Assembly: GCA_902812465.1 (NCBI GenBank)
Contig: CADDZE010000034.1
Location: forward strand, 1 to 42,095
Length of the DNA: 42,095 nucleotides
Direction: 5' to 3'
Source: Acidobacteriota bacterium
GTDB lineage: Bacteria > Acidobacteriota > Terriglobia > UBA7540
Shown: positions 13,126 to 40,676 of the stretch, one piece after another
Position numbering within the stretch: position 1 is the stretch's first letter
How the letters are laid out: the number at the start of each line of letters is the position of its first letter
Made by a program: the position numbers and the translations under genes
Notes under the pieces: model-generated
Seen by the model: the letters and a program-made list of their open reading frames with translations, nothing else
Database searches by the model: none
What the model was told of the DNA's origin: nothing

Positions 13126-14154
13126 TCATCGCTTCCAGCGCGCTGGAACACGGCGCAGCGTTACTGCCGGTGCCAGCGCCCCTAGCGCGTCCCGGGCAGC
13201 ACTGGCCTGGCTGATGGGAGCATCCTCCACTTCCACCAGCACCGCCGCCGTGATGTCCCCGGGCTCCTCCCCTCCCATGATCAAACTAACCAGAGCAGCC
13301 TGAAGGGGCGGAAGACTGGGGTTGAACGCGGCATTCTCAATGTAAGATCCGGCGTACGTGCGCCCCGCCAAGGACCTCAACGCGATACCCGAAGGCGATC
13401 TCGAATAGGGAGCGTACGATTGGCAGGCCGCCTTCAAGGCAGCACGTGTTAAATCTTCCTCCGGGCTCGGGGCCAGCTCGAGATCGAAGCTCTTGCCGCC
13501 GAAGAGCCGCTCCCTCATCCCGAGGTTGCTGGGACCAAACGCTGCGGGCAGCAGCGCGGCCATGGTGGCAGGCGGGTGGTTCGCGATCAGGACGGCAAGG
13601 TCTGGGGCGTTCGGCAGTTCGTTCAGGAACTGCCGGCAGTGGCCGCAGGGCGCGGCGTTGATCGCGAGGGCGACGAGCCCGGCCTCGTCGTGTAAGAAGG
13701 CGTTGGCGACAGCGGCTTGTTCCGCGTGCACGCAGTAACCGAGCGGCTGACGCGGTACCTCAAGGTTAGCGCCCCAGTACAAACTCCCGCTGGCGCCGCG
13801 CGCCACGGCGCCCACGCGGTAACTCGAAATCGGGGGCCGCGCATAGAGCTGCGCCACCGGAAGCAGGTCGACCATGAGCGCCTCAACCTGCTTCCTTTCG
13901 GCGCGCCCTATCCCTTCCACCTCCGCAGCAGGAAGCTGCCCGCGAAGCGCGCGGTTGTTGAGAGACCTCAGCAAGCGCTCGCGCGACGGCACACTGAAGG
14001 AAGGGACCAGGCGGCGGAGGTCTTGCGCATCCAGCCAAGCCTTGGCGGCCGAATCGCTCCGCTTTCCCATAAGTCTTCCTGCCAGACAGGCGCCCGCGAG
14101 CATCACCAGAGCTCCGCGCCGGCTGAAGAGCATGTCGAATTTCACTTCCCGCAT
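13126..14154 (-). CDS. two-domain cytidine deaminase with N-terminal Tat-type signal
   Basis: A 342-residue protein. Residues 36-340 follow the E. coli Cdd layout: a catalytic domain with zinc ligands HAE (H143, E145) and PCGHC (C170, C173), then a degenerate second domain (YAPYSRSPSGIAL, SYIENAAFNPSLPPLQ). Such enzymes hydrolyse cytidine and deoxycytidine to uridine forms in the cytoplasm. Here about 35 residues are added at the front: FSRRGALVMLAGACLAG has a twin-arginine pair (R12, R13), a hydrophobic stretch and a possible lipid-attachment Cys at 23. If used, the folded zinc enzyme would be exported. GAGGT lies just before the ATG at 14154. If translation began after the signal a normal cytosolic enzyme would result, but I see no good internal start. 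The gaps to its neighbours are 31 and 35 bases, so an operon is likely. Confidence 0.88.
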   Translation of the reverse strand: MREVKFDMLFSRRGALVMLAGACLAGRLMGKRSDSAAKAWLDAQDLRRLVPSFSVPSRERLLRSLNNRALRGQLPAAEVEGIGRAERKQVEALMVDLLPVAQLYARPPISSYRVGAVARGASGSLYWGANLEVPRQPLGYCVHAEQAAVANAFLHDEAGLVALAINAAPCGHCRQFLNELPNAPDLAVLIANHPPATMAALLPAAFGPSNLGMRERLFGGKSFDLELAPSPEEDLTRAALKAACQSYAPYSRSPSGIALRSLAGRTYAGSYIENAAFNPSLPPLQAALVSLIMGGEEPGDITAAVLVEVEDAPISQASAARDALGALAPAVTLRRVPARWKR

Positions 14155-14185: not shown

Positions 14186-15493
14186 CTAACGCAGGACGGG
14201 AAGGGCAGGCGACACCGTGAACCGGAGCTTTCCGTGGGCGGTGCGCAGGGCTTGCTCAACCGCCTGCGGGGATTCGCCGCGGGCGAAGATGAATCCTAGG
14301 TAACTCGATCCTTCCGGCAACGGCACCAGCTTCTGCAAGGGCTTGGCGCTGATGACGACATCCCACACACCCGGCGTATTCAGAGCCTGTTCCACTCCCT
14401 CCACCCCCTCGTAGACTCCCTCGGCAGGGATGGGAATCATCATCACGCCCGAGGCCTGCGGTTCGCGAGCAAAGGCAGCGACGCTCTCATCCAAGGCCAG
14501 GCGGATGATGAGCTCCTCCAGGGTAATGTGCTCCTTAGTATTTTCAGGAGAATAAAAGCGCAAGGCGCGGGAACACAATCCGCCGATCGGGCGGCTGGCC
14601 ACTTCCAGAATCCAAACGCGCTCGTGCGGCGAGGCAGCGTTGAACGCGCTTTGCGGCATGATGCGAAACTCGGCGTGAAGGGGCCCATGGAACAGCCCCA
14701 AAGCCTCTGCAGCGCGCCGCAAGGTCTCCGTCACCGCGTCCTGCACCTCGGGAGCGAGGCGCGACGGAGTGACGTAGAGGGTCTCCTCGAAGAAGGGGCC
14801 GGCGAGGGGATCGGGCTTCTCAAAAAGGGCGAGCACCCGCAACTGCCCGTGGTCGGCGACTGCCTCGACAGCTACTTCGTCGCCCTCGATGTAGTCCTCT
14901 ACTTGGATGAACTCGTTGCTGCTCTCGCGCATCACTCGCACGTCCGGAGCGCGCAGCAGCTCGCGGATGCGCCTGAAGGCGCGAACGAATTCGCTGTCGC
15001 CGTCGGCGCGAATGACTCCGCGGCTGGCCGAAAGTGCCAGCGGTTTGAGCACACAGGGGAATCGCACCCCGTGAGTTGCCAGGATCTGCTCCGGATCGCT
15101 CTCGACCCGGTAGCGCTGTGCGGCCGGCACATTGAGTCCGGCGCAGCGCAGGCGCTGGCGCGACAGGTATTTGTCCCGGCAGATGTCGGCAGCCTGGGGA
15201 GGGTGAAAGGGCAGTCCGAGCCGCTGAGCCGCGCGCGCCGCAGTGGGCGTGGGCCGATCGCCAAGCGAGACAACGGCATGCACCGGCTTTCCTTGAGCGT
15301 AGTCAACGATCTGCCTGGCGGAGGCCTCCGGGTCCTCGAAGCGCAGCGGCAGTGCGCCATCCTGCCAAGGATCCTCGAGCACATGACAGCGGTCCGTGCC
15401 GAAGGTAACGCCTAGGCCGAGTTTCTGCGCCGCCTCGAGGAAGGCACGCGTCTGGTAACCGGTAGTGGTGGAAAGCAAAAGAAGCCGCCTCAC
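14186..15493 (-). CDS. ATP-grasp ligase, L-amino-acid-ligase-like
   Basis: About 435 residues. The N-terminal part (RRLLLLSTTTGYQ) is a Rossmann-like preATP-grasp fold. The ATP-grasp domain spans roughly 110-310: DKYLSRQRLRCAG, then FPCVLKPLALSASRGV with the ATP-binding Lys, FIQVEDYIEGDEVAVEAV, and metal-binding HAEFRI with WILEVASRPIGG. The C-terminal domain (GVMMIPIPAEGVYEGVEG) resembles the LAL C-terminal domain. The family forms amide or peptide bonds by an acyl phosphate; substrates are unknown here. GTG at 15493 is chosen because GGTGGGG lies upstream; another GTG at 15550 has none. The frame stands 123 bases after the methyltransferase gene and 31 before the cytidine deaminase gene. 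Confidence 0.82.
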   Translation of the reverse strand: MRRLLLLSTTTGYQTRAFLEAAQKLGLGVTFGTDRCHVLEDPWQDGALPLRFEDPEASARQIVDYAQGKPVHAVVSLGDRPTPTAARAAQRLGLPFHPPQAADICRDKYLSRQRLRCAGLNVPAAQRYRVESDPEQILATHGVRFPCVLKPLALSASRGVIRADGDSEFVRAFRRIRELLRAPDVRVMRESSNEFIQVEDYIEGDEVAVEAVADHGQLRVLALFEKPDPLAGPFFEETLYVTPSRLAPEVQDAVTETLRRAAEALGLFHGPLHAEFRIMPQSAFNAASPHERVWILEVASRPIGGLCSRALRFYSPENTKEHITLEELIIRLALDESVAAFAREPQASGVMMIPIPAEGVYEGVEGVEQALNTPGVWDVVISAKPLQKLVPLPEGSSYLGFIFARGESPQAVEQALRTAHGKLRFTVSPALPVLR

Positions 15494-15616
15494 GAGAACC
15501 CCACCCTGCGCCTGCTGCTGCAGTAGCGAGGACCCAGTTCGACCCCTCACCGCCGAACCATGGCCGCACCGCAGGCACCCAGATCCGGAATGACCTGCGT
15601 TTTCCTGATCCCCATC

Positions 15617-39776: not shown

Positions 39777-40676
39777 TCAGCCCTCGAGCGCCTGCCGGCA
39801 GTAGGCGTAACATTTCCGGACCTCGGCCACGGTGTCCATTCCCGGCTCGCCATATTCGTACTCGATGTTGGCGGGAATCTTCCAATGCTGATCGCGGAGA
39901 AGCCGCAGCACCGCGGCAATCGGCGTGTCACCCTGGCCAAACGGCACATTCGGGCCATGGTTTTTCTTGCGATCCTTGATGTGTAGCGTGACGATGCGAT
40001 GGTGATAGCGGCGGATGAACTCCACCGGATCGCCGTTGGCAGCGACGAAATGGCCAATGTCCAGGTTGATGCCGATATAGGGGGAGGCGCCCTTCAATGC
40101 CCGCTCGAACGTCTCCGCGGTTGAGAACTCATCGGGGTTGGAAGTCTGGTCGTGGCCATGGCATCCCACGGTCACCTGATACTTCTGCGCATAGGCGTCG
40201 ACACGGGGAATCACGCTGAGGTTGGCGGAGGCCGTGAGGTATTTCACGCCTAGCGCTTGCGCCATCTTGAAACCCTGTTCGATCTCGGGATCGGTATAGT
40301 CGCGGCGGAAGCTGTAGTTGTAAGCGTAGAGAAGGATGCCCGCGTCATCGAACTGCCGGCGGATGTTACGGAAGTGGCTGAGGGGCGTCGTCAGCCGCCA
40401 ATGGCGCATCGCCTCGCGGCCCATCTGGCGTTCATCCGGCTCGACGTGCCCTTGCCAGAGCTCACACTCGCCAAGCCCCACAGTCTGGTAGGCCTCGACG
40501 CAGGCGGCGAGTGGCCGGTCGCGAAACGAATAGCTTTGAGCGCCTATCTGGACGCCTCGAACCACGGAGTCGATTCGCTGGGCAGCCACCCATCGGGTCA
40601 CGCGGCTGGCGCACAGCAAGCCGAGGGAACCAGCCATCATTCGCTTGCCAGCTTCGCGCCGCGAGAGGGTGGACAT
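39777..40676 (-). CDS. Tat-signal sugar phosphate isomerase/epimerase-like TIM-barrel protein
   Basis: 299 residues. It starts with MSTLSRREAGKRMMAG, a twin-arginine (RR at 6-7) and a hydrophobic segment to about residue 32, then an AP-endonuclease-2/xylose-isomerase-type TIM barrel. Candidate metal ligands are in VGCHGHDQTSNP, INLDIGHFV, VTLHIKDRKK and NIEYEYGEP. The family acts on sugars or cyclitols; the substrate is unknown. Export as a folded metal protein would fit the Tat signal. GGAGGACG stands before the ATG at 40676. The sulfurtransferase gene ends upstream by 122 bases. Confidence 0.88.
   Translation of the reverse strand: MSTLSRREAGKRMMAGSLGLLCASRVTRWVAAQRIDSVVRGVQIGAQSYSFRDRPLAACVEAYQTVGLGECELWQGHVEPDERQMGREAMRHWRLTTPLSHFRNIRRQFDDAGILLYAYNYSFRRDYTDPEIEQGFKMAQALGVKYLTASANLSVIPRVDAYAQKYQVTVGCHGHDQTSNPDEFSTAETFERALKGASPYIGINLDIGHFVAANGDPVEFIRRYHHRIVTLHIKDRKKNHGPNVPFGQGDTPIAAVLRLLRDQHWKIPANIEYEYGEPGMDTVAEVRKCYAYCRQALEG

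Follow-up and report, generated by a model that had tools for sequence, protein, structure and literature searches.

The locus analyzed here raises the question of why a cytidine deaminase (Cdd), an enzyme that is cytoplasmic in E. coli, should start with what looks like an export signal. The gene lies in a 42,095-nucleotide stretch of acidobacterial DNA (hereafter the window), and its open reading frame (ORF) begins with ATG. The following features of the gene, all on the minus strand, are referred to throughout the text.

13126..14154, minus strand: cdd, two-domain cytidine deaminase with an N-terminal leader, 342 amino acids (from ORF, families, and fold)
14038..14154, minus strand: predicted Tat signal peptide, residues 1-39 (conserved leader; low-pLDDT segment)
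14116..14121, minus strand: twin arginine R12-R13 (CGG CGC), kept in 10/10 leader-bearing Cdds
14077..14115, minus strand: hydrophobic h-region, residues 14-26, GALVMLAGACLAG (Kyte-Doolittle)
14068..14070, minus strand: alternative in-frame ATG, M29, with AGGA six bases upstream; its use would give a leaderless enzyme
13942..14037, minus strand: linker/N-terminal helical segment of Cdd, residues 40-71 (the model shows helices starting at residue 43)
13615..13884, minus strand: catalytic domain PF00383, with zinc site H143, E145, C170, and C173
13192..13557, minus strand: C-terminal (second) deaminase domain PF08211 (family match)

The identity of the enzyme as a complete E. coli-type two-domain Cdd was confirmed by families, motifs, and fold. 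Both Pfam domains were matched within one chain, PF00383 with 44 bits and PF08211 with 135 bits. NF006537, the cytidine deaminase family of NCBIfam, scored 293.8 bits, above its cut-off of 153. TIGR01355 scored 251.3 bits, below its cut-off of 275, and it stayed below that cut-off for the nine other leader-bearing Cdds described below as well. The motifs HAE (residues 143-145) and PCGHC (residues 169-173) are present, and the zinc-site residues H143, E145, C170, and C173 were invariant across 22 aligned Cdds, which gives the protein the appearance of an active E. coli-type Cdd. The AlphaFold model had a mean pLDDT of 89.7; by ten-residue block, values ranged from 45 to 60 within residues 1-40, where an isolated helix at residues 12-29 was the only helix, and from 87 to 98 afterwards. 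Among solved structures, E. coli Cdd (1ctt) matched best, with 39% identity and a TM score of 0.92 on the target, and those of Vibrio cholerae and Klebsiella were the other nearest relatives. According to this model, the enzyme part is complete from about residue 41, residues 41-342 being confidently a Cdd, with the leader attached as a unit of its own. The N-terminal extension is therefore present as originally predicted, but its length is about 41 residues rather than about 35, because position 10 of NF006537 aligns to residue 51.

The leader of the window protein reads MREVKFDMLFSRRGALVMLAGACLAGRLMGKRSDSAAKA. Tat signal peptides follow the consensus S/T-R-R-x-F-L-K, of which the window sequence S-R-R-G-A-L-V matches the S, the RR pair, and the L, with F and K replaced; the lack of a Phe at its usual place had been noted at the outset and holds, Ala standing there instead. 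From RR+2 onward, 12 uncharged residues follow before R27 breaks the h-region, and the best 13-residue stretch has a Kyte-Doolittle mean of 2.00. A putative cleavage site, recognized as a pattern by eye, follows A37-K38-A39. Scans of the ten leader-bearing proteins against Pfam and NCBIfam with E values up to 10 returned no Tat-signal family, a null result that says little since HMMER filters drop such weak, short matches. The same leader had also been considered as a possible lipid anchor, an option that did not survive the comparison with homologues. Within 40 residues downstream of the RR pair, the window Cdd alone among the ten has a Cys, so that its Cys23 has no counterpart in the other nine, and its LAGAC lacks the L that is usual at position -3 of a lipobox.

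The original prediction made conservation of the extension in Acidobacteriota its main check, and we thus collected two-domain Cdds from the best 80 of at least 540 matching genome loci, from 399 genomes of the class, and from 396 genomes of the phylum. The class genomes yielded 11 two-domain matches and the phylum genomes 3 above the cut-off, the window genome being included both times. Removal of duplicates (two recognized by shared DNA; L148/L076 and L032/L066 judged the same by sequence and by identical lengths of ORF or contig) left 20 distinct Acidobacteriota proteins including that of the window. A leader consisting of an RR pair and a hydrophobic stretch was found in 10 of these 20, namely, the window Cdd, L060, L062, L063, L064, L065, L067, L068, L141, and L142. 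When these ten were aligned, R12 and R13 were the sole invariant columns ahead of the enzyme domain, bearing in mind that the ten (like the eight of an earlier alignment) were selected for showing RR, that gapped columns were ineligible, and that most of the linker is missing in L063 and L064. Mean identity among the ten was 21.9% across the signal segment apart from RR, 34.1% in the linker, and 54.7% in the core, and the RR pair was encoded by five different codon pairs. Such retention of RR in a leader that is otherwise 22% identical looks like selection for the Tat motif. The pattern RR.[FGAVML][LITMVF], a known form of that motif, was found at the aligned pair in 9/10 proteins, the exception being L060, and several relatives show A-x-A-like ends after the h-region (e.g., AHA, VFA, and IFA).

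Broader scans put the sequence motif in perspective. Among 92 Cdd ORFs, a few of them repeat finds of one gene, only those ten, all from Acidobacteriota, combined an RR pair with a hydrophobic stretch behind it, as assessed from the motif and by eye. Of the 142 ORFs with 150 or more amino acids in 16 Acidobacteriota stretches, 13 passed a simple Tat rule. Seven of these 13 were leader-bearing Cdds; L060, L064, and L142 failed. The rule alone is thus neither rare nor complete, and it is conservation that carries the argument.

Conservation is nevertheless partial, the leader being present in only half of the collection. No leader was found in the other 10 of the 20 Acidobacteriota Cdds; L061 among them keeps the linker and shows TRS in place of TRR. 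A midpoint-rooted tree of 42 proteins was built from the 20 Acidobacteriota sequences (duplicates L143, L147, and L148 dropped) and 22 hand-picked outgroup rows. The leader-bearing Cdds fell within a group of 19 (support 93/89), whose other members are six leaderless proteins of Acidobacteriota, two that are Melainabacteria-like, and one from a gammaproteobacterium. Close relatives lacking the extension, which had been named as evidence against an export signal, therefore exist within the leader-bearing group itself. On this tree, the leader state needs three changes, of which the starred branches force at least one, the deep forks being weak. No two-domain Cdd of comparable score was found in 36 genomes of the same family (best score, 40 bits); the window gene is thus patchy and may have moved laterally. 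A phage origin was considered and rejected, as the window Cdd had no match in viral contigs or phage records. Thirty-eight plasmid records matched, none covering 80% of the query, and no tRNA was found within the window.

Taken together, the best account of the window protein is probably that of an E. coli-type Cdd exported by the Tat pathway, which would scavenge external pyrimidine nucleosides in the periplasm. Its two parts differ in strength: export is likely, given the conserved leader, and the salvage role, which is suggested by the gene neighbors of relatives, is somewhat less so but still favored. The Tat reading thus draws support from conservation within Acidobacteriota, tempered by the half of the Acidobacteriota Cdds that are leaderless. 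In the window genome, which is 98.6% complete with 4.2% contamination, a TatC (PF00902, 223 bits) is encoded and the TatA/B-type family PF02416 gives two hits. The enzyme would fold and take up zinc in the cytoplasm and would then be moved as a folded protein across the inner membrane by TatABC. The leader would probably be cut near A39, leaving Cdd to work in the periplasm, where it would convert cytidine and deoxycytidine to uridine and deoxyuridine. The substrates could come from nucleic acids, either external or released by dying cells.

In an unlikely variant of this account, the leader stays uncut and keeps the enzyme attached to the inner membrane on its periplasmic side. The AKA site of the window protein is a by-eye pattern only and L062 shows no clear A-x-A, which would agree with an uncut leader, but several relatives do show a polar end with A-x-A-like residues, and a lipid anchor is not conserved.

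A second alternative is that the protein is an ordinary cytoplasmic Cdd that starts at M29 in the window genome, or that uses both starts to give exported and cytoplasmic forms, the leader having decayed or acting on only a fraction of the enzyme made. The ribosome site is better at M29 (AGGA at six bases) than at M1 (GAGG at four bases), and the window genome yielded no further Cdd: its TIGR01354 matches are the two halves of the window Cdd, and its only other PF00383 match reads as TadA by eye. Leaderless relatives also exist, and L060 and L141 have an ATG at the same position (RR+16), with L062 having one at RR+18, so an internal start would not be peculiar to the window. Against this, codons 1-28 appear coding (GC3 0.68, GC2 0.46), and the RR pair is kept in ten homologues whose signal segment otherwise diverges, which makes an untranslated leader hard to sustain. 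Moreover, in L063 and L064 the only start in the 35 residues ahead of RR lies four residues before it. In L060, L141, and L062, nothing resembling AGGA precedes those internal ATGs at the usual spacing (by eye), and no ATG lies at RR+14 to RR+20 in the other six leader-bearing Cdds. We regard a window enzyme that is cytoplasmic, wholly or in part, as improbable. A frameshifted or non-coding leader is also unlikely, since homologues keep both the reading frame and RR.

For the preferred reading, a Tat-exported Cdd, the complement of deaminases in each genome bears on what would be left in the cytoplasm. A separate single-domain Cdd scored above the cut-off in 5/14 genomes searched. Four of the ten genomes encoding a Tat-leader Cdd have such a gene (L063, L064, L065, and L068), so the Tat copy is not simply a housekeeping enzyme there. 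In the remaining 6/10, the window genome among them, the Tat copy was the sole Cdd found, and its export would leave the cytoplasm without one, which counts against this reading.

Gene neighborhoods were next considered for partners in nucleoside use. The scanned neighbors of the window gene encode a TPR protein and an ATP-grasp ligase, neither of which is a nucleoside gene, and they lend the salvage role no support. The ligase carries an L-amino-acid ligase C-terminal domain (PF13535, PF18603; window 14186-15550, minus strand), and its ORF lies 31 bases upstream of cdd on the same strand, a spacing that would allow cotranscription. No nucleoside gene was found as the single scanned neighbor of the Cdds of L060, L062, L067, L068, L141, and L142 either. 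The informative cases came from two Bryobacterales, L063 and L064, in which the Tat-leader Cdd gene shares its first base with the last one of a gene for a NupG-type symporter (nucleoside-H+ symporter family Nuc_H_symport, PF03825; 353 and 345 bits, respectively). This family was above its cut-off in 4/13 genomes, the two besides L063 and L064 being marginal (27 and 26 bits), and had no match in the window genome. A gene with an RR leader precedes the symporter in both Bryobacterales, and its L063 copy encodes a xylose-isomerase-like TIM barrel. As a separate observation, another possible Tat substrate lies in the window itself, at 39777-40676 (minus strand); this protein carries the RR leader MSTLSRREAGKRMMAGSLGLLCASRV ahead of a xylose-isomerase-like TIM barrel (PF01261).

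The uridine formed by a periplasmic Cdd could either be imported by a nucleoside symporter, as the two Bryobacterales suggest, or be cleaved outside the cytoplasm by a nucleoside hydrolase. The window genome offers a candidate for the latter in a RihA-like protein with a Sec-like leader (L154:1471-2508, minus strand), which scored 263 bits against a curated cut-off of 433. A set of pyrimidine genes was found in a gammaproteobacterial relative, L081, whose Cdd carries a Sec-like leader, MKKFTLGLLLLSCALV, with later ATGs at residues 38 and 41. There, the compact region L081:226-8005 encodes, in order, a TonB receptor, thymidine phosphorylase, Cdd, uracil phosphoribosyltransferase (upp), a C-N hydrolase, and dihydropyrimidinase. 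When 195 genomes were searched for further gammaproteobacterial relatives with a Sec-like leader, nothing emerged beyond the query genome itself and a single partial match. In Chlamydiota, the longest ORFs of two two-domain Cdds (L074:3878-4804 and L075:3857-4807) open with Sec-like hydrophobic leaders, and their true starts could be later ATGs.

Leaderless Cdds showed a different setting. Those of G547, G594, G489, and G689, which belong to one genus and are not independent, lie directly behind a gene of the uridine phosphorylase superfamily. Such a neighbor was found in 4/6 leaderless Acidobacteriota genomes versus 0/10 Tat genomes, the genomes of L030, L066, L149, and L150 lying outside the search. 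This neighbor is compatible with a cytoplasmic role for the leaderless enzymes. Leaderless Cdds directly behind a PNP_UDP_1 gene were seen at L131:3079-4735, with an 8-base overlap, and at L190:5023-6638; the L131 Cdd lacks the N-terminal helical segment.

The neighbors also bear on a third alternative, in which the exported enzyme would act as a shield that deaminates cytidine-like nucleoside antibiotics of soil competitors before they enter the cell; the Tat route would suit this role and Cdd-type enzymes accept cytidine analogues, but it is very improbable given that the informative relatives' neighbors indicate salvage (NupG-type symporter, thymidine phosphorylase, uracil phosphoribosyltransferase, and dihydropyrimidinase) and that no resistance gene was found among the neighbors scanned.

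Returning to salvage by an exported Cdd, a broader and more tentative possibility is that exporting nucleoside Cdds is a strategy found repeatedly among bacteria, with Tat as the route in Acidobacteriota and Sec-like leaders in L081, L074, and L075. Such enzymes might form a periplasmic branch of pyrimidine salvage that deaminates before uptake, with loss of the signal returning some copies to cytoplasmic pairs beside uridine phosphorylase. Nucleoside deamination is normally placed after uptake. If the window Cdd is exported, deamination and ammonium release would occur outside the inner membrane, cytidine would become usable with uridine-preferring hydrolases or transporters, and the view of DNA and RNA recycling by soil bacteria would change. 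A Cdd gene in a genome need not, then, imply cytoplasmic salvage. Each of these steps (export, cleavage, activity, substrate source, and product flow) is proposed here from sequence and gene context.

No description of a Sec- or Tat-exported bacterial nucleoside Cdd was recognized in the literature searched, from which subscription journals were mostly absent. Among secreted deaminases, Tsd1 and Tsd2 of Pseudomonas aeruginosa are described as putative type VI secretion effectors, with a PAAR-like domain in Tsd1 and an immunity gene (PMC9846239). Like the Tat-leader Cdd, they are bacterial proteins of the cytidine deaminase superfamily destined to leave the cell; unlike it, they are not nucleoside Cdds of the two-domain kind that bear a signal peptide at the N terminus. 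The SNAD1 proteins of fish are secreted AID/APOBEC-like deaminases (PMC11004436). They share with the Tat-leader Cdd a zinc-dependent cytidine deaminase domain, a signal peptide, and intracellular relatives, and differ in belonging to the animal AID/APOBEC family. Pyrimidine nucleoside hydrolases of the RihA/RihC type are different enzymes, and the one with a Sec-like leader in the window genome is a likely partner for uridine. With Tat substrates that have cleavable signal peptides, the window protein shares an S/T/N/D-R-R pair, a hydrophobic stretch, an A-x-A-like polar end, and a TatC in the genome, whereas the Ala at the Phe position and a charged residue soon after the h-region set its leader apart from the usual ones. 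The closest counterpart is E. coli Cdd (PDB 1ctt/1af2; NF006537), which matches it in fold, in having two deaminase domains, and in the zinc site formed by HAE and PCGHC, and from which the window enzyme differs by about 41 extra residues with a twin-arginine leader.
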